Shown here: piece by piece, positions 8,503 through 51,835 of the stretch
Numbering within the stretch: position 1 is the stretch's first letter
How the letters are laid out: each line of letters starts with the position of its first letter
NCBI RefSeq assembly: GCF_019972115.1
Contig: NZ_BPFJ01000002.1
Span: 124,001 to 188,000 of the forward strand
Length of the DNA: 64,000 bases
Source: Sulfurovum sp. TSL6
GTDB lineage: Bacteria; Campylobacterota; Campylobacteria; Campylobacterales; Sulfurovaceae
Direction: 5' to 3'
Notes under the pieces: generated by a model
What the model was told of the DNA's origin: nothing
Database searches by the model: none
The model's input: only the letters and a program-made list of their open reading frames with translations
Position numbers and translations under genes: made by a program

Positions 8503-9369
8503 ATGAAGTTTTTCTACATCTTTCTCGCTATCATACTTTTTACATTTCAAGGATGTACGACAAAAGAAGCGAACCCAGAGTTCAATCACACACATATTAA
8601 AACTGATGCAATGACATCAGATCCTCTCACAATAAATACTACTGATGACCAAAAAAAAGAGAATCAAACAGAAGAATTTGAAGAAGAGTTTAATGAAGAA
8701 TTTGAAGAGGAGTTTTCAGAGCAGGAGACAAATACTGCCAGTGACCCATTAAGTGGTTATAATAGATGGATGACTTCTTTCAATGATACGTTTACACTCT
8801 ATGCATTGAACCCTATTTCTGAAGCCTATGCAACGATAGTGCCTCAACCTTTACGTTTAGGGCTATCCAATGCTGTGGATAACATACAATTTCCTATTCG
8901 TTTTGCCAACAACCTCTTGCAAGGAAAGTTCCAAAATTCTTCGGATGAACTGGGAAGATTTATTATAAACTCTACCGTGGGACTAGCCGGGCTTATCGAT
9001 GTTGCAACAAACCAGATGACAACACCGATACCTGCACATGATGAAGACTTCGGTCAAACCTTGGGGTACTATGGTATAGGATCTGGCTTCCATGTCGTTT
9101 TACCATTCATCGGACCATCCAATATAAGAGATATCGTGGGAATCACGGCAGATGCCTATCTCTCTCCACTTGTGAATGTAAGAGGATTAGAAAATTATAA
9201 AATACCTAACAATCTTGGTCAAACTATCGGTATTTATTCTGTTCATACGATCAACAAAACATCTCTACATTTAGGAGAATATGAAAATCTTAGAGAGGAT
9301 GCTGTGGATCTCTATCCATTTTTTAGAGATATCTATGAACAAAAAAGAAATGCTGATATAGCGGAATAA
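8503..9369 (+). CDS. mlaA: MlaA/VacJ outer-membrane lipoprotein
   Basis: 288 residues from the ATG at 8503, chosen because AAAGGGGGA sits just before it and because a lipoprotein signal (MKFFYIFLAIILFTFQGC) then starts at once; the ATG 21 bases earlier has no such signal. After the lipobox comes an acidic Glu-rich spacer (about residues 50-75), then the VacJ domain with DPLSGYNRWMTSFND and GQTLGYYGIGSGFHVVLP. MlaA removes misplaced phospholipid from the outer leaflet of the outer membrane and hands it to MlaC. The Glu-rich spacer is longer than in E. coli MlaA. First gene of a three-gene operon. Confidence 0.92.
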   Translation: MKFFYIFLAIILFTFQGCTTKEANPEFNHTHIKTDAMTSDPLTINTTDDQKKENQTEEFEEEFNEEFEEEFSEQETNTASDPLSGYNRWMTSFNDTFTLYALNPISEAYATIVPQPLRLGLSNAVDNIQFPIRFANNLLQGKFQNSSDELGRFIINSTVGLAGLIDVATNQMTTPIPAHDEDFGQTLGYYGIGSGFHVVLPFIGPSNIRDIVGITADAYLSPLVNVRGLENYKIPNNLGQTIGIYSVHTINKTSLHLGEYENLREDAVDLYPFFRDIYEQKRNADIAE

Positions 9370-9387
9370 ATCAAATAAGGTAAAAAT

Positions 9388-9951
9388 ATGTTAAAAAAAG
9401 TCATTATATTCTTGTTTCTGTCTGTCATCTCTCTTTATGCAGTAGAAGAGCGAAATATCCAAAAAGTGATGGATAGCAAAGTGAGACAGGTTTTAGATAT
9501 TTTAAAAAACAAGACATTGTCCCAAAAACAAAAAGATCAAAAAAATGTTCGTATTATAGACGATGTCTTTGACTACAGTATCATGTCACAAATAAGCTTG
9601 GGCAAAAGATGGAAAACCCTTACGAAAAATGAAAAAACACAATTTTCCAAAGCTTTTGAGCAAAAGATAAAACATTCATACCTAGATAAACTAAGACTGT
9701 ACAACAATGAAAAAGTGATCATTAAAAACTTGAAAAAAGTCAAAACAAATCGCATTACCTTGGAAACACTGGTTATAGGTCTTGACGATACCTATAAAGT
9801 TATCTATCTGTTTTACAAGAAAAAACAAAATAATCAGTGGTATATTTATGATGTGGAATTGGTTGGTGTGAGCATTATTCAAACCTATAGAAAACAGTTT
9901 TCAGAATTTTTGAAAACAAAAACGGTCAAACAGCTTATAGAATCACTCTAA
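9388..9951 (+). CDS. mlaC: MlaC-like periplasmic phospholipid-binding protein
   Basis: 187 residues with signal peptide MLKKVIIFLFLSVISLYA. The body matches the MlaC/Ttg2D fold: a repeated helical part with FDYSIMSQISLGKRWKTLTKNEKTQFSKAF, then the beta-sheet part ending in WYIYDVELVGVSIIQTYRKQF. MlaC shuttles lipid between MlaA and an inner-membrane transporter. It lies 18 bases after mlaA and 46 bases before a large RND protein, which fits a lipid-transfer operon. Older names are Ttg2D and toluene tolerance protein. Confidence 0.9.
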   Translation: MLKKVIIFLFLSVISLYAVEERNIQKVMDSKVRQVLDILKNKTLSQKQKDQKNVRIIDDVFDYSIMSQISLGKRWKTLTKNEKTQFSKAFEQKIKHSYLDKLRLYNNEKVIIKNLKKVKTNRITLETLVIGLDDTYKVIYLFYKKKQNNQWYIYDVELVGVSIIQTYRKQFSEFLKTKTVKQLIESL

Positions 9952-9997
9952 GTCATTCTGTAGACAAAGGCCTTTATATATGATAAAAAGATAATCG

Positions 9998-12487
9998 ATG
10001 CTAACTACACTTTATCAAAAACTGATACTTAAATATCCCTTATCGGTTTTGATCATCCTTATCAGCAGCATACTCATTTTTGGCATTAATGTCCTGAAAC
10101 TGGAGATAGATGCTTCTGCAGAAACGCTTCTTTTAAATGATGATAAAGACTTGGCATTTTCCAGAACTGTAGCAAAAAGATTTCAAACCAATGATCTCCT
10201 TATTATTGCCTATAAACCCAAACAGAATCTACTCTCTCCAGAAAGCCTGCAAACATTAACACGTATCTCTGAAGATCTAAAACAATTACCTAGTGTTGAA
10301 TCTGTGGATTCACTTATTAATGTACCTCTGTTTTTTTCACCTATCCGAGATATGGATGACCTGATCAATGAAACCAGGACCCTAAAGAGTCCTGACATCA
10401 ATCTATCCATGGTGAAACATGAGTTTTTGACCAGTCCTCTTTATAAAGACAGCCTTGTCAATAAAGATTTTACGATATCTTCGATCATCATCCATTTATA
10501 TCAGGATCCCGAATATTTCACACTTTTAGAAAAGAGAAACCGTTTACTTGATAAACAAAGGAACGCTTCTCTTACCAAGAAAGAGGAACAGACACTGGAT
10601 GAAGTCTCTATCGCATTTAAAGAACACAGGGATGAACAGCGTATTCTTGACAATCAGAATATTAAAGAAATTCGCTCTCTGATCTCAAAGTACCAAAATG
10701 ATGCCACATTTTTTTTAGGTGGTGTTCAAATGATCTCCAACGATATTGTTGGATTTATCAAAAATGATCTGCTTATTTATGGAAGTACCCTGATACTCCT
10801 TATTATCCTTGTTTTGGGTTTTGTTTTCAAAAGAGCAAGATGGGTGATGCTGCCTATTCTTATCTGTGCTCTGTCCGTCATTGCTATCACCAGCAGTCTG
10901 GGATATTTTGGATGGGAGATCACTGTTATCTCTTCAAACTTTATTGCCTTGCAGCTCATTATTACCATTTCTATCGTTTTACATCTTATTGTAAGGTATG
11001 AAGAACTGTTGACACTTTACCCTCATGCTTCATCCAAAAGACTTATTTTAGTTACGATGATTACAAAAGCCACACCTACTTTCTTTGCTATTATCACTAC
11101 GATCGCAGGGTTTTCTTCACTGCTCTATTCTCATATCTATCCTGTCATTAATCTGGGTTGGATGATGAGTGCAGGGATCTCCATGTCACTTTTTATTGCA
11201 TTTATTGTTTTTCCTGCTGTACTGATGTTACTAAAAAAAAGACCTCCTATCAAGCGTAAGAGATCTATGGCCTTTATACCCTCTCTTACTGCCAGAATTG
11301 TATTACATGATAAAAAAGCGATCTATATCATCACCTTCCTTTCTATTGTATTTAGTATCACAGGGGCTTCACAGCTTATTGTAGAAAACAGTTTTATCAA
11401 CTACTTCAAAAAAGATACGGATATCTATAAAGGTATGAAGATTATAGACCAGGAGCTAGGAGGGACCACTCCCTTAGATGTCATACTCACGCTATCGGAT
11501 GAGAACAGTACCTACTCACCTACCGATGCGACACAAGAAGATACGGATGAAGAGGCAGATTCCTTCGAAGATGAATTCAGTCTTGTAGAGAACCAAGACC
11601 AATACTGGTTCACGGATGAAAAGATCAAGATCATCAAAAAAGTCCATAACTATTTAACACAGCTAGAACAGGTAGGTGAGGTACAGTCTTTTGCCACACT
11701 TCTTGATACAGGAAAAGTACTCAATGAAAACAAAGATCTAGACAGTATAGATCTCGCTTTGATCTATAAAAAACTCCCTCAAAAATATAGAGATGTGATA
11801 CTGACCCCTTACGTCGATATTGAACATAACCAGCTAAGGTTTTCTACACGTATCGTAGATTCTAGTGAATCTTTACGAAGGGACGCATTACTGAAAAAGA
11901 TCAAAAGTGACCTCACACAAATCATAGATCCTGATGTCGCCACGGTACAGCTCTCAAATCTCATGGTTCTTTACAATAATATGCTGCAATCCCTGTTCCA
12001 TTCACAGATCACAATGATCGGTCTTGTATTGCTCATCGTTTTCCTCATGTTCCTTCTACTGTTCAGGTCCCTGAAACTCACATTTATTGCGTTGATCGTC
12101 AATATTGTTCCTATAGCTCTGGTCTTTGGATTTATGGGCTGGTTACACATTCCTCTGGATATTATGACGATTACCATCGCTGCCATAGCTATGGGTATAG
12201 GTATTGATGACACGATACATTATATTCACCGATTTAAAGTTGAATTTGAAAAAGACAATTTATACTATTTTACGATGCATCGAACAAGCAACAGCATTGG
12301 GAATGCTTTGTACTTTACCACACTTGTCATCGTGATAGGTTTTTCCATTCTGACATTGTCAAATTTGATCCCGACCATTTATTTTGGTCTGCTTACAATG
12401 GTGGTGATGGTCGCTGCACTCACGTCAGATATGATACTTTTACCAAAACTTTTACTTTTAATTAAGCCATTCAAAAAATCAAAATAA
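9998..12487 (+). CDS. RND/MMPL-family exporter linked to MlaA-MlaC
   Basis: 829 residues in two similar halves, each with one N-terminal membrane helix, a large periplasmic loop and a five-helix block, the layout of MMPL/HpnN-type RND proteins. The second half has the hallmark GIGIDDTIHYIHRF with its acidic pair in the membrane region. Such proteins use proton flow to move lipids or hydrophobic compounds. Co-transcription with mlaA and mlaC suggests lipid transport between the membranes; in Campylobacter the trio Cj1371-Cj1373 has the same order (recalled). An acidic segment of about 20 residues (near 510-530) sits in the second periplasmic loop. Substrate unknown. Confidence 0.85.
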   Translation: MLTTLYQKLILKYPLSVLIILISSILIFGINVLKLEIDASAETLLLNDDKDLAFSRTVAKRFQTNDLLIIAYKPKQNLLSPESLQTLTRISEDLKQLPSVESVDSLINVPLFFSPIRDMDDLINETRTLKSPDINLSMVKHEFLTSPLYKDSLVNKDFTISSIIIHLYQDPEYFTLLEKRNRLLDKQRNASLTKKEEQTLDEVSIAFKEHRDEQRILDNQNIKEIRSLISKYQNDATFFLGGVQMISNDIVGFIKNDLLIYGSTLILLIILVLGFVFKRARWVMLPILICALSVIAITSSLGYFGWEITVISSNFIALQLIITISIVLHLIVRYEELLTLYPHASSKRLILVTMITKATPTFFAIITTIAGFSSLLYSHIYPVINLGWMMSAGISMSLFIAFIVFPAVLMLLKKRPPIKRKRSMAFIPSLTARIVLHDKKAIYIITFLSIVFSITGASQLIVENSFINYFKKDTDIYKGMKIIDQELGGTTPLDVILTLSDENSTYSPTDATQEDTDEEADSFEDEFSLVENQDQYWFTDEKIKIIKKVHNYLTQLEQVGEVQSFATLLDTGKVLNENKDLDSIDLALIYKKLPQKYRDVILTPYVDIEHNQLRFSTRIVDSSESLRRDALLKKIKSDLTQIIDPDVATVQLSNLMVLYNNMLQSLFHSQITMIGLVLLIVFLMFLLLFRSLKLTFIALIVNIVPIALVFGFMGWLHIPLDIMTITIAAIAMGIGIDDTIHYIHRFKVEFEKDNLYYFTMHRTSNSIGNALYFTTLVIVIGFSILTLSNLIPTIYFGLLTMVVMVAALTSDMILLPKLLLLIKPFKKSK

Positions 12488-43367: not shown

Positions 43368-45194
43368 TTAACCTACTATAGAAAGATGAAAGTGATAACT
43401 TACTATCTTTTTAAACTTATTCACTGTTTTGAGTGCCTCTTTTAAAAGGTCACGTTCAAGCTTTCCTATGTTGACCACAGAGATATAGTTATCTATCTTC
43501 TCCCCTTTTGCCAGCTGCGAAAGTTGAGAATGGAGTCTCAGTGTAGTGAATACTTCCAGTGCTTCCATCAACTCTGTCGCATCCTCTTTACTCAAAAAAC
43601 CACTATTATTCAGCGCTTTGATACGCAGGGTTGTATTGGTCGCTCTGATCTGATGTTCCAAAGCCAATGCACGTACCCCATGGATCAATGCAAAAAGAGC
43701 ACCTTTTTTGATATCTATCTCATTCTTATGTGCTTTATCATGCACAAATTGAGAAAACAGTCCCAGTGGAGACTCAAACGTTTCGATCGCTCTTGCAAAA
43801 TGCATGAGGATCGACGGGGTTTGTTCCACTTTATGAAAGAGATAATCGATCAATTCCGTATGCAGTGACAGTTTTCCGGCAACAGGGGTAGAGTCAAAGA
43901 AAATAGCCATATCCATAAATTTCTCATACGTTGGTGCTTCCATCCAGTCATAGATATCTTCTTTGTATGCTTCGATCGGTTTGCACCACTTTGGATTGAT
44001 CATCATGATCTCACCTTCACAGCGCGGAAAACCTATCTCGTCAAGGACTTCGATAAATCTCTGTGTCACAGATGCTGCATCCTGAGGCATAAAACCTTTC
44101 TCAAAGACAAGTGCATTATCCTGGTCTGTTCTTAGGATCTGTGAAGCACGCCCTTCACTTCCCAGGAGGATGAGGGTACATTTATCATGCCATGTATGAG
44201 GGATGATCATTTTAAAGAGTTTCATATACATTTTTCTGTTGATCTCAGAGACCAACTTGGCAATATAGCGGCTTTTTACCCCTTTTGCATGCAGTGCACC
44301 TATCATCACATTCAAACGTTTGGCGGCGGCAACCACATTCTCAAGCTTTTGTGCTCTCTCCATTTGAACCGTAATAAGATGGGACTGATTGGAAAAGAAG
44401 CTCAAAAGATCAACAAGTTCAAGTATGCCTAGAACATTGTTGTCATCATCCAACACAGGAAGGTGTTTGATACTGTGTTCTGTCATCAAGAGTAAAATGT
44501 TAAAAAGAAGTTCTCCATTTTTAACGGAAATGGCAGGATAGCTTTGTATCTGAGAGATATTTTCTAAACTTTTTTCCTCTTTTTGGAGAATATAGTATCT
44601 GAAATCTGCATCGGTCACAATGCCATACCCTTCATCATTTTGAACCAGTAAACAGCTTGCACCCTCTTCATCCATACGCTTCAGTGAATCAACGATAGAA
44701 ACATTGGACGCAATGACACATGCTTTATGCAAAATAGATTCATCCAGCCTTGCTATCATCAAGTCGCTCATAGAAGCATATTCTTTCTTCTCTTTAAGCA
44801 ACTCGATACGTTCTACGATACTTGAAAAGAAATAATGTTTAAAATCCTTATTGCTTTCACAAATATCCAGGAATGATGCCTTTGGAATCTCAAAACATAT
44901 CAATTCTTCTGTCACTTTGTAACTATACTCGGAAGGTTGATCTTCAATGATCTCAATACCACCAAAAATATCATGGGTATGATACATATCAATATGTTCT
45001 TCATTCTCATCAAATACTTCAACGATACCTTTTATCACAACAAAAAGGTTTTCAGGCGTTTTATCTTTACCTATGAGCACTGTGTCATTAGGATAATAGA
45101 CGATCTGTGCATCGTTTTTGATATGATCAAATTCTTTTTTAGTTAAGAGTGTAAATGGTAGATGTGTCTTTATATTTTCGAATAATGTTATCAC
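43368..45194 (-). CDS. cNMP-binding/CBS/DUF294 nucleotidyltransferase-like regulator
   Basis: 608 residues with four parts: an N-terminal cyclic-nucleotide-binding-like domain (1-130, NTVLIGKDKTPENLFVVIKGIVEVFDE), a CBS pair (about 150-275), the DUF294 nucleotidyltransferase-like domain (ILLGSEGRASQILRTDQDNALVF near residue 345, with the DxD-like DQD), and a C-terminal helical DUF294_C domain. The architecture suggests a sensor coupled to protein or nucleotide modification (GlnD-like uridylyltransferase relatives). Set between actP and acs, it probably tunes acetate metabolism. Cytoplasmic. Confidence 0.88.
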   Translation of the reverse strand: MITLFENIKTHLPFTLLTKKEFDHIKNDAQIVYYPNDTVLIGKDKTPENLFVVIKGIVEVFDENEEHIDMYHTHDIFGGIEIIEDQPSEYSYKVTEELICFEIPKASFLDICESNKDFKHYFFSSIVERIELLKEKKEYASMSDLMIARLDESILHKACVIASNVSIVDSLKRMDEEGASCLLVQNDEGYGIVTDADFRYYILQKEEKSLENISQIQSYPAISVKNGELLFNILLLMTEHSIKHLPVLDDDNNVLGILELVDLLSFFSNQSHLITVQMERAQKLENVVAAAKRLNVMIGALHAKGVKSRYIAKLVSEINRKMYMKLFKMIIPHTWHDKCTLILLGSEGRASQILRTDQDNALVFEKGFMPQDAASVTQRFIEVLDEIGFPRCEGEIMMINPKWCKPIEAYKEDIYDWMEAPTYEKFMDMAIFFDSTPVAGKLSLHTELIDYLFHKVEQTPSILMHFARAIETFESPLGLFSQFVHDKAHKNEIDIKKGALFALIHGVRALALEHQIRATNTTLRIKALNNSGFLSKEDATELMEALEVFTTLRLHSQLSQLAKGEKIDNYISVVNIGKLERDLLKEALKTVNKFKKIVSYHFHLSIVG

Positions 45195-45242: not shown

Positions 45243-46910
45243 TTAGTGAGCTACTGCTCCATTAGATCCGATACCCGTTTGACATCTAATGTCCTGAGCA
45301 TCAAATTCATCGATACATCTTTGTGCATCATCAGATTTATCTGTGATCGAGAAGAACCAGATCGCTATAAATGCCACTGGCACTGAGAAGACTGCCGGGA
45401 ATTTGTAAGGTACAATTGCTGTCTCATTACCCAGGATCTGTGTCCAAACAACCGGACCAAGAATAACAAGTACGAGCGCTGAGATCAAACCAATATACCC
45501 ACCAATGACCGCACCTCTTGTTGTAAGCTTCTTCCAGAATATCGACATAAACAGCACTGGGAAGTTAGCAGACGCTGCGATCGTAAATGCCAGCGCCACA
45601 ACAAATGCGATATTTTGCTTTTCAAAGGCAATACCAAAGAAGATAGCAGCAATACCAATGGCAATAGTGGCCATTTTAGAAACTTGCATCTCCTTTTTCT
45701 CATCGACTTTACCTGTTGCAAATGCATTCGCATAAAGGTCATGAGAGATCGCTGACGCACCAGCGAGTGTAAGACCGGAAACAACCGCAAGAATAGTAGC
45801 AAATGCAACAGCTGAGATAAATCCAAGGAAATAATCTCCACCCACTGCATGTGCCAGCCATACCGCTGCCATGTTGTTCATCCCTTTAAGTGTTGCACCA
45901 TCAGCAGCCAGATAAGAACCTGCAGGATCCCCAAGTACGAGTACGATCGCACCGAATCCCATGATGAATGTAAGTACATAGAAATACCCGATCAAACCTG
46001 TTGCAACAAATACAGACTTTCTAGCCTCTTTTGCATCTGCAACCGTAAAGAATCTCATAAGGATATGTGGGAGACCCGCTGTACCGAACATCAAGGCAAT
46101 ACCAAGTGAAATAGCTGAAATAGGATCAGAAACTAGACCACCTGGGCTCATGATCTCTACACCTTTAGCGTGGATCTGCGTTGCTTGTGTAAAGAGTGCA
46201 TCAAAACTAAATCCAAACTTTGCCATAACCATGATTGACATAAATGTAGTCCCCGCAAGTAATAATACCGCTTTAATGATCTGTACCCATGTAGTTGCAA
46301 GCATACCGCCAAATGCAACATATAGAATCATAAGAATACCGACAAGTACAACGGCAAACTCATAATCCAATCCAAATAAGATTTCTATCAATTTACCTGC
46401 ACCCACCATTTGAGCAATAAGATAAAGAATCACAACAGAAATTGAACCCAATGCTGCCAGGATCCTTACCGGTTTTTGCTTTAATCTATAGGCAGTCACA
46501 TCGGCAAATGTATATTTACCCAAGTTTCTAAGTTGCTCAGAGATCATAAAAAGAATAATTGGCCAACCTACCAAGAAACCGATAGAGAAGATAAGACCAT
46601 CATACCCTTTCAGGTAAACCATACCCGTAATACCCAGGAAAGATGCCGCTGACATGTAGTCACCTGCAATGGCTGTACCGTTTTGTGTACCTGTGATCCC
46701 ACCACCTGCTGTATAGAAGTCACTAGCAGACTTTGTTCTTTTTGAAGCCCAGTAAGTAATACCCAGTGTTGCTGCAACAAAAATAAAGAACATCACAATA
46801 GCAGGCACATTCAGCTCTTCAGCTTTTGTACCTTCACCCAAATCAGCTCCCGCTGCAAATGCAACTGTCATGGAAGCCATCATAAATAGAGATAAAATTC
46901 TACCTAACAT
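45243..46910 (-). CDS. actP: Cation/acetate symporter
   Basis: 555 residues with about 13 membrane helices and an N-terminal signal-like segment ([21 protein letters not shown]), typical of ActP in the sodium:solute symporter family. Landmarks: [45 protein letters not shown] and [16 protein letters not shown]. It imports acetate with a cation. It overlaps the DUF485 gene by one base (TAATG), so the two are translationally coupled, as with yjcH-actP in E. coli. Confidence 0.95.
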
Positions 46911-47230
46911 TAATTCATCTCCTTTTCAATATCATTTTTTAGATCGTTTAAAAGACCATCAAATTCACCGTTGGCTCTTCTTACATAAAGTCCTGTCATT
47001 GCAAATGCAAAAATGATAATAGCTAGACCGACAGGTATACCCCATGTCGCCATACCTTCTGGGCTTATTTTAGTTCCCAATGTTTCTGGGCTGAATGCAA
47101 TAAATAAAATAAATGCATAATAGACCACTAACATGATAATAGTCAATGTCCAGGCAAACTTACTTCTTGTACCTACAAGTTTTTGGTACTTAGGATTGTT
47201 TTTAATCTGTTGCACTTGTTCTTGTGTCAT
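46910..47230 (-). CDS. DUF485 (YjcH-like) small membrane protein
   Basis: 106 residues with two membrane helices (about 28-49 and 64-85) joined by a short loop. [33 protein letters not shown] is the DUF485 signature. Members always sit before ActP-type symporters and are thought to assist or regulate them. Start ATG with AAGGAG seven bases upstream; 61 bases after the porin gene. Confidence 0.93.
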
Positions 47231-47291
47231 TTTTTCTCCTTGTTATTATGATATGGTATATTTATTCACATACCATAATGTTTAAACTTTA

Positions 47292-48680
47292 TTAAAAGTT
47301 ATAGTTTATAATCAGTCTATACTCATCCCAGTCTAAACCATTTTTGAAATCTCTTGGATAGTTTGCTCTGGCTCTTAAGTTAAGACCCTCAACCGAAGCG
47401 ACATTGTATTGAATATCCCAACCAGATTCTGATGCTGTCCAAGCTGTACCATAATCGTAGCTGTTGGTTGCACCAATATCAAATTCTGTATAAAATACAG
47501 AAGCTTTAATATCTTCACCAAGTAGCTCATTCAACTTATAGGTTCCAGCTACTTTCCAACTGTCCGTGTCAGAGAAGAATTGATGTCTTGTGACCATACC
47601 TTGTGTAAATGCTGGCATTCCACCCCATGGAGTAATAATACCACTAGTTGGACTGGTTGGTGTAATATCACTTGTATCTGTTTGAGAATACGCTGCATAT
47701 GCACTGAATGCACCTAGACTTGCACCTAGTTTCACACCCCAGTAGTTACTGTCAACTTTACCTGCAAGTGCATCTCCTACATCACTTTGACCAATGTATT
47801 GTGCTGAAGCGTTCATTTTTACATTTTCATTCAAAAGACATTTCCATCCATAATCAGCCTGAAGGTACACAGCATTGAGGATATCATGTGCATAGTAGTC
47901 CCATGCCGTTAAAGTAACGCCATCAAACCCTTTATAGGTAGCTGCTACTGCAGTGACACCATCAGTTTTATTATCTATACTGCCATCGCCATTAAAATCA
48001 TTATCACCTAATGCTACCCTACCCATATTTACAAAATCACCACTTTGTGCCAAGGTTGTACCTGCACCGTAACCACTTGCAAAACCTAATCCGTAAGCAT
48101 CATCATAAATATTACTGAATGTACCAGTCGTCTCTCTGGTAATATGTGCTAAGGTTAAAGTAGTATCTTCAAGATCAGTGTTTGTCACTACTGCTGCTTC
48201 AAAAAGGTTTGGAATCATTCTTGCATCATCAGCTCCTGCCAATGGTGTATCAAGTCTTTGACGACCCACTTTGATGTTTGTATTGTTAAATTTATAGTTA
48301 AGGTATGCTTGTCCTATAAATGCATAATTATCTCCGTCACGACCCATCAATGCAGGATCATAACTGGCAGTGTCACCACTGTCACTATCTACCTCATGAA
48401 TATTAAATCCATAAACACCATAAGCTGCCACAGCTGCTGTCAATCCATTAAAATCTGGTGACCTATATCCTATATAACCACCTGTTGCAAGTGAATTACG
48501 GTTATTATTAACTAGACCGGAATACGTTCTGTCAATATAGAATGTTCTGAATTGACCAAACAACTCACCGTAATCTACTTCAGCCGCTTCCGTTGCTACA
48601 ACCGGTTCAAATGGTGCAATATCTCCTCCTGCCATCAGCAGTGTTGATGCTGCGACAGAGATTGCTAAATATGTTCTCAT
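47292..48680 (-). CDS. Outer-membrane porin (OprD/Opr-like)
   Basis: 462 residues. Signal peptide MRTYLAISVAASTLLMAGG, then FGQFRTFYIDRTYSG and many amphipathic strands, with KVGRQRLDTPLAGADDARMIPNLFEAAVV and a C-terminal strand ending INYNF, the terminal Phe expected for BAM-inserted barrels. The family is that of epsilonproteobacterial Opr porins. Placed upstream of the acetate symporter genes, it may admit small organic acids, but selectivity is unknown. The gap upstream holds three 11-bp direct repeats. Confidence 0.88.
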   Translation of the reverse strand: MRTYLAISVAASTLLMAGGDIAPFEPVVATEAAEVDYGELFGQFRTFYIDRTYSGLVNNNRNSLATGGYIGYRSPDFNGLTAAVAAYGVYGFNIHEVDSDSGDTASYDPALMGRDGDNYAFIGQAYLNYKFNNTNIKVGRQRLDTPLAGADDARMIPNLFEAAVVTNTDLEDTTLTLAHITRETTGTFSNIYDDAYGLGFASGYGAGTTLAQSGDFVNMGRVALGDNDFNGDGSIDNKTDGVTAVAATYKGFDGVTLTAWDYYAHDILNAVYLQADYGWKCLLNENVKMNASAQYIGQSDVGDALAGKVDSNYWGVKLGASLGAFSAYAAYSQTDTSDITPTSPTSGIITPWGGMPAFTQGMVTRHQFFSDTDSWKVAGTYKLNELLGEDIKASVFYTEFDIGATNSYDYGTAWTASESGWDIQYNVASVEGLNLRARANYPRDFKNGLDWDEYRLIINYNF

Positions 48681-48694
48681 TGTATCTCCTAATT

Positions 48695-48780
48695 TTTATA
48701 CGTTTGAAGTATGTAGGCTTAACGTAGCATTAACATAGCATTAACAAAAGAAAGGAAAATGTGTATAAAAAAAAATTATA
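48695..48780 (-). promoter_or_regulatory. Porin promoter region with two possible -10 boxes
   Basis: On the minus strand a strong TATAAT lies at 48780-48775 and a TATAAA at 48700-48695, closer to the ATG. If the distal box is used, the direct repeats lie in the 5' leader; if the proximal one, they cover the -35 region. The Shine-Dalgarno AGGAG is at 48690-48686; with the proximal box transcription would start within it, which favours the distal box. Confidence 0.5.
48713..48745 (-). promoter_or_regulatory. Three tandem 11-bp direct repeats, likely response-regulator site
   Basis: Reading toward the porin: GTTAATGCTAT, GTTAATGCTAC, GTTAAGCCTAC, exactly contiguous. Period 11 in the same orientation is the pattern bound by OmpR/PhoB-family regulators. 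The gene for such a regulator lies immediately upstream on the same strand. Confidence 0.7.
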
Positions 48781-48827
48781 TGTGTGTATATTGGTTACAA
48801 TAAGGAGAGATAAATGTATCAAAAAAG

Positions 48828-49490
48828 TTACATTTGTTTAGAAAGTGTATATCCCACACCCTTCAGTGTTGTGATGAGATCTTCTTTTAGCACTTGACGG
48901 AGCCTGTGTATCTCTGCTCTGATGATCGCATTATCTACAGGACTGTCATCCCAAGCATAGTGTCTGAGCATTTCAAAGTCAACCACCTTATTTATATTTT
49001 TTGCGAACAGATCCATGATCTGTAATTGTTTTTGTGTAAGTAACTGCTCTTCCCCATCAAACAACAAAGATTGATTTTCTGCATCATAGCTGTACATCTT
49101 TGATATCTTTATAAAGCTTTTTGCCCTTATATCTGCCATTTTTAACAATCTTTCAATGTGCAAACTTAACTCTTTGAGATGAAAAGGCTTTTTCAAATAG
49201 TCATAACAACCTAATGCATAGGCCTGGCTTATCTGCTCTATCTCTGTAATAGCAGAGATAAAGATCGTAGGAACATAGATCTTTTCTTTTTGCAGTGTGT
49301 CAAGTAAAGAGAGTCCATCCATACTTGGAGTGTTGATATCGAAGATAAAAAGATCATAGCTGTTCGAAGATATATTCTCATAGGCTTCCTGTCCATCTTC
49401 AAATGCTGTCACTTCAAACCCGGTGTCAGACAAATATTCTTTTATAGCGCCCTGGAGCATTAATTCATCTTCAAGTAATAATACTTTCAT
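48828..49490 (-). CDS. OmpR/PhoB-family response regulator
   Basis: 220 residues. Receiver domain with acidic pair E7-D8, phospho-acceptor D51 (FDINTPSMDG), Thr/Ser region FISAIT and the KKPF lysine; then a winged-helix output domain ending DNAIIRAEIHRLRQVLKEDLITTLKGVGYTL. It overlaps the upstream kinase gene by 20 bases, so they form one pair. It should bind direct repeats such as those upstream of the porin. Confidence 0.95.
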   Translation of the reverse strand: MKVLLLEDELMLQGAIKEYLSDTGFEVTAFEDGQEAYENISSNSYDLFIFDINTPSMDGLSLLDTLQKEKIYVPTIFISAITEIEQISQAYALGCYDYLKKPFHLKELSLHIERLLKMADIRAKSFIKISKMYSYDAENQSLLFDGEEQLLTQKQLQIMDLFAKNINKVVDFEMLRHYAWDDSPVDNAIIRAEIHRLRQVLKEDLITTLKGVGYTLSKQM

Positions 49491-51120
49491 CCTGCTCCTC
49501 CTTTTTAAATCTATAACTGAATACTGTCATTTTATCATCAGATTGTACTTCTATTTTAACATGTTCTTTTTGACATATCGTGTGGACTATTTCCAGTCCC
49601 AATCCAAATCCACCCCGAACATCGTTCTCACGTTCGAATGACTTAAAGATCCGTTCCGTATCATCTATTTTAGGAGAATGCCCTACAAACTCTAACACAA
49701 TCTCTTCTTTTTCTTCTTTCAGTACAACCTTTACATCGGTGCCTCGGTCGGCATATTTGATAGCGTTCGATAGATTGTTATCTACAATTCTTTGTAGTTC
49801 TTCCGGACTAAAAAAGATCCAAATATCATTTTGGATCTCAGAAATAATTTGATGTTTATTCCCCAACGCTATTTCAGAGAAAAAGTCCACTCGTTCCTCA
49901 AGAAAAGCAGACATGTTCAAATGTTTTTTTCTATAGGTCACACGGTTTTTTTTCACCATATAACTCAAGTCATCATAGATATTAGAGATGATCTTACTTG
50001 CCGCTTCTATTTTAGTAAGATATTTGTTTTCCCCTTCTTTCATTTTAAACAGATCAATATGGGTCATGATCACTGCCAAAGGCGTATTGATCTCATGAAT
50101 AGAGTGTTTGATAAAACTGTCTTGTGCCTTCACTAATGAAGCATTGAAATCTTTCTCCTGCTCCAGTAAGATATTTTTTTCACTCAGATCTTTTGTTTTT
50201 TGTTCAACTTTTGATTCGAGTGTAAGGTTCAACTCTTTGAGTTTCTGGTTTCTTTGTTGAATAACACGGATCATTCTATTAATATAATGTACCATTTTTT
50301 TAAACTCAGAGAGTCGTATATTTTCTTCATCTATCCTTTCATAGGTTGATGCAGCTTTTTCGAAATAACGGTTAAATAATGATATCTCTTTGTTAAGTAT
50401 ATGATTTGTAAGGATAATGCCTATCATCCCTACTATAAATAGAATCACCAATAGCAACGCCATTTTGAGGGAATATTGGTCAAGTCTGTTTTTGAGTATT
50501 TCCCTTTGCATTTGAATATGTTTTTCTACTTCATCAAGATAAACACCCGTTCCTACCATCCAACCCCAGGGTTCAAATGATTTCGCATAAGAGATTTTCG
50601 GACTTAATAGACCTGTCGTAGGCTTTAACCATTGATACTCAACAAACCCACCCTCTTTAGTCCGTGAAATATCTATAAGATCTTTGATCACCAGCACACC
50701 ATTGGTATCTTGAGTGTCATAAAGATTTTTACCTATATTCTGTCTTTGGATGGGATCAGAAAGAACAATGCCGTTAAAATCATAGACAAAAATGTACCCT
50801 GTACCATCTTGACGTCCGTAAAGTTCTTCTATGGCATGAAGTATTTGTTTTTTGACTGTTTCTTCATCTTGTACTTTATCTTTAGAGGCATAGGCATCCT
50901 TGATAAAATTGAGCACCCGTGTGGTATCAAAAACAATCGTATCTTTTTGTTTTTGAATAAATTCAGAGTGCATACTTTCAGCTTCAATTTCAAAATTTCG
51001 ATACTCTTTATAGGCAACAATCGCTGCAAACACTATGATGACCATAAGCATCATAAGCATACCAACTACATGAATACTTGCAATCGTTTTATTTTTTAAA
51101 AAATTGATACTACTCTCCAT
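49471..51120 (-). CDS. Cache-domain sensor histidine kinase
   Basis: 549 residues. Membrane helix near 15-35, then a periplasmic single-Cache (sCache_2) domain: YIFVYDFNGIVLSDP, GGFVEYQWLKP, AKSFEPWGWMVGTGVYLDEVEKHI. A second helix (about 217-237), a coiled linker, the dimerisation helix with phospho-acceptor H342 in HEINTPL, and an ATPase domain with N-box NNLSNAIKYAD and GGFGLGLEIV. sCache domains commonly bind small carboxylates. Its place upstream of acetate genes suggests acetate or a related acid as ligand, but this is inferred. Confidence 0.93.
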   Translation of the reverse strand: MESSINFLKNKTIASIHVVGMLMMLMVIIVFAAIVAYKEYRNFEIEAESMHSEFIQKQKDTIVFDTTRVLNFIKDAYASKDKVQDEETVKKQILHAIEELYGRQDGTGYIFVYDFNGIVLSDPIQRQNIGKNLYDTQDTNGVLVIKDLIDISRTKEGGFVEYQWLKPTTGLLSPKISYAKSFEPWGWMVGTGVYLDEVEKHIQMQREILKNRLDQYSLKMALLLVILFIVGMIGIILTNHILNKEISLFNRYFEKAASTYERIDEENIRLSEFKKMVHYINRMIRVIQQRNQKLKELNLTLESKVEQKTKDLSEKNILLEQEKDFNASLVKAQDSFIKHSIHEINTPLAVIMTHIDLFKMKEGENKYLTKIEAASKIISNIYDDLSYMVKKNRVTYRKKHLNMSAFLEERVDFFSEIALGNKHQIISEIQNDIWIFFSPEELQRIVDNNLSNAIKYADRGTDVKVVLKEEKEEIVLEFVGHSPKIDDTERIFKSFERENDVRGGFGLGLEIVHTICQKEHVKIEVQSDDKMTVFSYRFKKEEQDESIIT

Positions 51121-51173
51121 CTGCAGTGGAAGTATGAGTCAATCTCCCCAACTTCACTGCCATCTGCTTTAAA

Positions 51174-51234
51174 ATCATAACAAGAATCGAAACGTATTTT
51201 TTACATATGATGCTGTCTATTAAACTTTATTATA
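51174..51234 (-). promoter_or_regulatory. Candidate promoters of the sensor kinase operon
   Basis: Two -10-like boxes on the minus strand: TATAAT at 51234-51229 and TATGAT at 51179-51174. The 196-base gap is shared with the divergent ppa gene. Which is used cannot be told. Confidence 0.35.
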
Positions 51235-51280
51235 TGTAAGATAATACCATGATTTGATAAACTATTTATGATATTTATGA

Positions 51281-51286
51281 TAGAAT
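51281..51286 (+). promoter_or_regulatory. -10 box of ppa
   Basis: TAGAAT about 30 bases ahead of the ppa ATG, followed by a GGAGA Shine-Dalgarno. Confidence 0.45.
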
Positions 51287-51316
51287 CTCCAAAATTTAAC
51301 CTATGGAGATGTTCAA

Positions 51317-51835
51317 ATGGATATTACTAAAATCGGATCTGGCGAAAACCCAGATGCTGTAAAAGCAATTATCGAAGTACCACTTAACTCAGCTATCAAA
51401 TACGAAATAGATAAAGATTCGGGTGCTGTTGAAGTAGATAGAGTACTTTACTCTGCTATGCACTACCCTGCAAACTATGGTTTTGTTGCTAATACATTGT
51501 CAGATGATGGTGATCCGGCTGATATCCTTGTACTGTGTGATTATCCGCTGCAAGCTGGTTCGTACATCAAATGTAGACTTGTAGGTGTACTCATGACAGA
51601 AGATGAAAGTGGTGGAGATGAAAAACTTATCGCTGTTCCTACAGAAAAAATAGACCCAACCTATAAAAATATTCAAGACTTAGGTGATGTGCCAGAGCAT
51701 ACACTGAACCGTATCAAAAACTTCTTTGAAACATACAAAATGCTTGAGCCTAACAAATGGGTAAAAGTATCTGGTTTTCAAGACAAGGCAGCTGCAACAG
51801 CTATCTTGGACAAAGCCATTAAAAACTACAAATAA
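51317..51835 (+). CDS. ppa: Inorganic pyrophosphatase, family I
   Basis: 172 residues. Family I active-site blocks: IEVPLNSAIKYEIDKDSGAVEVDR, MHYPANYGFVANTLSDDGDPADILVL (with the DxDPxD metal site) and EHTLNRIKNFFETYK. It hydrolyses pyrophosphate to drive biosynthesis, including the acetyl-CoA synthetase step. Single gene with its own promoter and a hairpin after it. Confidence 0.97.
   Translation: MDITKIGSGENPDAVKAIIEVPLNSAIKYEIDKDSGAVEVDRVLYSAMHYPANYGFVANTLSDDGDPADILVLCDYPLQAGSYIKCRLVGVLMTEDESGGDEKLIAVPTEKIDPTYKNIQDLGDVPEHTLNRIKNFFETYKMLEPNKWVKVSGFQDKAAATAILDKAIKNYK

Follow-up and report, generated by a model that had tools for sequence, protein, structure and literature searches.

A conserved PhoB-style candidate activator site at the porin-ActP promoters of a Campylobacterales two-component system

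PhoB binds the pho box as a head-to-tail dimer that replaces the −35 element and contacts RNA polymerase, and in the E. coli phoA promoter, where we confirmed the arrangement upstream of phoA, the site and −10 box read TGTCAT-N5-TGTCAC-N10-TATAGT. Two-component control of the genes by which acetate is taken up and activated (actP, acs) is known from the CrbS/CrbR acetate switch, in which CrbR is a LuxR/NarL-type protein and CrbS has a symporter-like domain. The Campylobacterales, an order with gut species among its members, are major chemolithotrophs in vents and aquifers; the open-access literature that we searched holds no description of how acetate or small-acid uptake is controlled in this order. 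Two C. jejuni two-component systems in the same order, RacRS and BumSR, control carboxylate-related genes (PMC5293742, PMC11796366); the sensory part of BumS is a PAS domain (PMC11796366), and RacR has its ggt site ~80 bp ahead of the start (PMC4456614). We rejected both as known equivalents of the system described below, RacR because its ggt site is set apart by position and does not abut a −10 box, unlike the site here, and BumR in a comparison made without a BumR site, which is absent from that paper.

The locus studied here lies in a 64-kb stretch of DNA (the window), and its kinase, regulator, repeats, porin, DUF485, ActP and DUF294 genes are all on the minus strand. A sensor histidine kinase with an sCache_2/dCache_2 sensor (49471–51120) is followed by an OmpR/PhoB-family response regulator (48828–49490), the proposed binder of the site, whose two domains are Pfam Response_reg (PF00072, 85 bits) and Trans_reg_C (PF00486, 48.5 bits). 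Beyond the repeats come an OprD-family porin (47292–48680), the first gene of the putatively controlled operon, a DUF485 protein (46910–47230), the cation/acetate symporter ActP (45243–46910) and a cNMP-binding/CBS/DUF294 protein (43368–45194) that is the usual last gene of the cluster. The ActP assignment is by NCBIfam NF006903 (896.6 bits against a cut-off of 750); the narrower equivalog TIGR02711 was missed (849.7 against 1099). An Rfam search of 47000–51500 matched no RNA family, and no intrinsic terminator was found between the regulator and porin genes. In contrast to CrbS/CrbR, this locus pairs an OmpR-type regulator with a Cache-domain sensor. It is an OmpR-family winged-helix regulator like PhoB, but it scores 83.2 bits against the NCBIfam PhoB model TIGR02154 and does not reach the cut-off of 296.2. 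PmrA/BasR-type regulators (8jo2, 4s04) are among its nearest full-length sequence matches with solved structures, and they differ from it in recognition-helix signature, box sequence and function.

The first-pass annotation of this DNA had reported three contiguous, same-strand 11-bp repeats at 48713–48745, directly downstream of the regulator gene (49490–48828), and both the sequence and the gene order are exactly as it claimed: read on the minus strand from 48745 to 48713, the contiguous 33 bp are GTTAATGCTAT GTTAATGCTAC GTTAAGCCTAC. The pairwise agreement of the three 11-mers, summed over the three comparisons, is 27 of 33 positions. When every 33-bp stretch of the window was scored as a three-copy 11-bp tandem, this stretch gave the top score, which was reached in none of 60 shuffles of the window and in none of 3000 shuffles of the 147-bp intergenic region. 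A pattern search found GTTAA-N6-GTTAA-N6-GTTAA a single time in the 2.25-Mb genome, and the unmatched score together with this uniqueness confirms that the repeat is real. The intergenic DNA is AT-rich, as would suit a chance or low-complexity tandem that has no function, but an origin of that sort is hardly credible, since shuffled sequence never attains the score and conservation at fixed spacing over many families (below) contradicts it.

The element that relatives conserve is TGCTAY-N5-TGCTAY, at 48740–48724, with a −10 box exactly 10 nt further on. The first hexamer, TGCTAT (48735–48740, about −39 to −34), is invariant as TGCTAY at orthologous promoters; the second, TGCTAC (48724–48729, about −28 to −23), is also conserved there and is followed by a conserved GTT; and the inferred −10 box, CATACT (48708–48713), falls in conserved columns. 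The consensus of 62 aligned sites is TGCTAY-GTT-M-A-TGCTAY-KTT-N5-TT-YATAAT. These sites were picked solely by their hexamers and the gene behind them, so that the −10 columns were not selected for, and −10 columns +28 (A) and +32 (T) are nevertheless 100% conserved. Column +39 is G in 65% of the 62 sites (0.9 bit), and this conserved G, 7 nt past the −10 box, makes 48701 the likely transcription start.

The 33-bp repeat holds this two-copy site, and its third copy is the spacer that leads to the −10 box. The count of three copies and the GTTAA consensus in the original description do not survive the comparison: GTTAA is in the wrong phase relative to the invariant core, TGCTAY, the functional copies number two, and conservation of the third fails already in the nearest relative (L002), which carries GTTCACCCTTC in its place. 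A three-copy array with a GTTAA core was rejected on these grounds. It is conceivable that three copies matter in this strain, the degenerate GTTAAGCCTAC being bound as a third site with a local tuning effect on the promoter, as it matches the other copies at GTTAA and CTAC and its GTTAA is kept in L003 and L009 also. We consider this unlikely, however, given its absence from L002; moreover, it has no TGCTAY, and protein bound there would cover the −10 box, whose first base is the final base of the third copy.

The first pass had also left the choice of −10 box ambiguous between a proximal TATAAA (48700–48695) and a distal TATAAT (48780–48775), with a roadblock as the outcome if the distal one were used. 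Both strings are present as named, but the conserved −10 is neither of them (it is CATACT at 48713–48708). The columns of the distal TATAAT hold little information in the 62 aligned sites; it was rejected as a promoter because it is not conserved, and for that reason the roadblock is unsupported. No TTGACA-like −35 was found at the conserved −10, which makes the promoter look activator-dependent. The same regulator might act at the same site as a repressor that keeps polymerase from the distal TATAAT or the proximal TATAAA; one regulator can repress and activate at different promoters, and the strings that such a reading calls for do exist. Repression nonetheless seems distinctly improbable when the distal TATAAT is not conserved, the −10 that is invariant in the 62 sites is the one with pho-box spacing, and that −10 has the look of one that needs an activator.

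Activation accords better with the comparison to phoA. The pho box there has the same 11-bp period, the same orientation and the same 10 nt to the −10, and differs in its core (TGTCAY, against TGCTAY here) and in what it controls, since PhoB serves phosphate and the genes here serve carboxylate uptake. Because the spacing is identical, activation fits and a roadblock does not. Two regulator protomers would bind head to tail on TGCTAY-N5-TGCTAY; the hexamer pair reaches into the region where a −35 would lie and stops 10 bp before the −10, and from this pho-box geometry we infer that the phosphorylated regulator would act as a class II activator, bringing in RNA polymerase and turning on porin-DUF485-ActP(-DUF294). 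Class II activation by the adjacent regulator is the most economical reading of that geometry. It is, on sequence grounds, very probable that the repeats contain an activator site of the adjacent regulator that controls the porin-DUF485-ActP(-DUF294) genes.

Conservation was measured first over 80 loci with related regulators, among which the closest relatives are Sulfurovum genomes. In almost every Sulfurovum-type locus TGCTAY-N5-TGCTAY follows the regulator gene, and in all 51 of the 51 loci that have a porin ORF a site that agrees at 11 or more of its 12 bases stands shortly before that ORF; loss of the repeat from orthologous porins, which the first pass had named as evidence against its proposal, is thus not what is seen. 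At twelve loci where the regulator gene is not adjacent or is distant, the site remains at the porin promoter, and since it stays with the porin when the regulator is elsewhere it is a promoter element and not part of the regulator gene's 3′ end. Seven loci without a porin have it before a DUF4212 + VC2705-type symporter pair, and at L016, L039 and L046, where the regulator is present, no site was found in the fetched DNA. With a position weight matrix (PWM) of the site, orthologous promoters score ~21–43, some regulator-adjacent sites of another family (L163, L164, L166, L167) only 7–16, and 13 ActP loci from genomes that have no close regulator at most 0.7 (one of these loci begins near a contig end). 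This genome contains one exact copy of TGCTAY-N5-TGCTAY, so the system here looks dedicated to one operon. A search for further targets in it gave 32 one-mismatch matches, that is, 33 matches in total against 48 for a reversed-pattern control, and the PWM found no second good site among 29 fetched one-mismatch loci or in the window.

The regulator itself has the phosphorylation residues D8, D51 and K101, which are invariant in 123 aligned regulators, and the signature IRAExxR at the position of the OmpR-family recognition helix, with R-A-E-x-x-R showing few exceptions in the same 123 sequences. We examined co-occurrence in 219 genomes of the order. The strict pattern (hexamers plus −10) is present in 85 of them, and 84 have a close regulator (E ≤ 1e-56); the site occurs in 78 of the 84 genomes with a close regulator and in 7 of the 135 without (Fisher 3e-43, phylogeny being ignored and the 1e-56 cut having been chosen after the table was viewed), and at a preset cut of 1e-40 the corresponding values are 81 of 140 and 4 of 79. 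Six genomes have the regulator and no strict match; four of these (L168, L169, L170, L173) have an 11/12 site, and no site was found in the fetched region of the other two (L171, L172). The original suggestion, that the repeats form a direct-repeat site of the PhoB/OmpR type linked with the regulator gene upstream, is upheld. There are 14 OmpR-type matches in this genome, and paralogous regulators adjoin similar boxes in other genomes, so a different OmpR-family paralogue might be the main binder, with the adjacent regulator a mere neighbour. This is very improbable: the site tracks the close orthologue and not distant paralogues (only 3 of the 56 genomes with weaker relatives alone have it), IRAExxR was found in none of the other 13 OmpR-type matches in this genome, and the next closest of them is ~40% identical to the regulator.

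A second element, TGTAAC-N6-ACACA (48783–48799, minus strand), lies 59 bp upstream of the first hexamer and is conserved at a fixed position. Counted from the first hexamer, GTWAC occurs between −72 and −45 in 60 of the 62 sites, and at −57 to −59 in 55 of them, where shuffling leads one to expect 4%. The element is retained at promoters that stand well away from the regulator gene, and TGTWAC-N6-ACACA is common to the porin/ActP promoters of the Sulfurovum and Sulfurimonas types; it is not evident at the acs or pta-ackA boxes described below. The HP1021/Cj1509 box is TGTTWCW (PMC6052347). The TGTTACT of Sulfurimonas-type promoters fits it, and the TGTAACC of the window, on the other strand, has one mismatch, a resemblance that may serve as a lead only.

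The gene content makes a small carboxylate the best guess for the inducer. The kinase has a Cache sensor region related to those of MctS, a sensor kinase for monocarboxylate transport, and of sCache carboxylate receptors such as PscD, and this region resembles PDB entries 2qhk, 4exo, 4k08 and 5g4y; the similarity to MctS is weak, the kinase scoring 118 bits against the MctS equivalog, far below the cut-off of 700. In PscD (5g4y/5g4z) the residues Tyr90, His103, Tyr143 and Lys156 hold the ligand, which may be acetate, glycolate, propionate or pyruvate (PMC5062169). In an alignment three of these four carboxylate-bonding residues are retained in the kinase, as Y109, Y162 and K175, and the position of His103 is occupied by D122; Asp at this position is common to Sulfurovum-type kinases. 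What the Cache domain detects is probably a small carboxylate, with acetate or another C2/C3 acid related to it as the likeliest candidate; since D122 replaces His103, the ligand may differ from acetate. H. pylori TlpB also aligns with Asp at the PscD His103 position. Pfam finds no Cache domain in the kinases of Sulfurimonas-type and some other relatives, five loci having a kinase without a detectable Cache domain beside an orthologous regulator, and at L165 a paralogous kinase carries FIST domains. With Cache-less kinases and a FIST-domain paralogue the inputs differ while the regulator and box are kept, and the sensor seems to have been exchanged between families.

Other families of the order have the box before DUF485-ActP and a subsequent acetyl-CoA synthetase gene, before acs (acetyl-CoA synthetase) alone, before pta-ackA (phosphate acetyltransferase and acetate kinase) and before DUF4212-VC2705 symporters. 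At one pta-ackA locus in another family (L166, 3833–3844, minus strand) two overlapping boxes, that is, three hexamers in an 11-bp register, form a genuine triple array. In L156 the box and the kinase-regulator pair are immediately followed by a Cache chemoreceptor gene (8583–10780, minus strand), an arrangement which suggests that chemotaxis and uptake are co-regulated there. The box is also found before genes for an aldehyde dehydrogenase, a TAXI-type TRAP transporter, a carboxylase subunit and an aldehyde oxidoreductase, and several of these targets adjoin paralogous kinase-regulator pairs (six loci, L165 among them, combine such a pair with a box of the same type in front of genes for aldehyde dehydrogenase, TAXI-TRAP or aldehyde oxidoreductase). 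The regulators beside the aldehyde dehydrogenase/TRAP operons with similar boxes are related (46–50% identical), so that in some genomes acetate genes are not alone in having the box; given the mixed targets, it is best ascribed to a subfamily of regulators that deals most often with acetate and related carboxylates.

The box is most likely a PhoB-style switch for the uptake of acetate-type carboxylates, present in nearly every relative with the same regulator. We take it for a conserved activator site in a two-component system for carboxylate, probably acetate; things of this kind are already known, and the TGCTAY box and its regulon have no description in the open-access literature searched (most subscription journals lie outside that scope). 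We regard as rather probable, taken as a whole, a wider reading in which TGCTAY-N5-TGCTAY marks an undescribed, order-wide carboxylate (acetate) regulon of the Campylobacterales: one IRAExxR regulator lineage would drive porin-ActP, DUF4212-VC2705, acs, pta-ackA and the chemoreceptor, the sensor domain would be swapped between families with the regulator and box fixed, and a second factor, possibly HP1021-type, would act at the porin/ActP promoters ~59 bp upstream. The box predicts target promoters by sequence and is tied to a regulator with one helix signature, which makes the regulon directly testable, and transporter specificity could be inferred from the promoter box. Differing sensors in combination with a constant regulator and box would illustrate cleanly how two-component systems can exchange their input.
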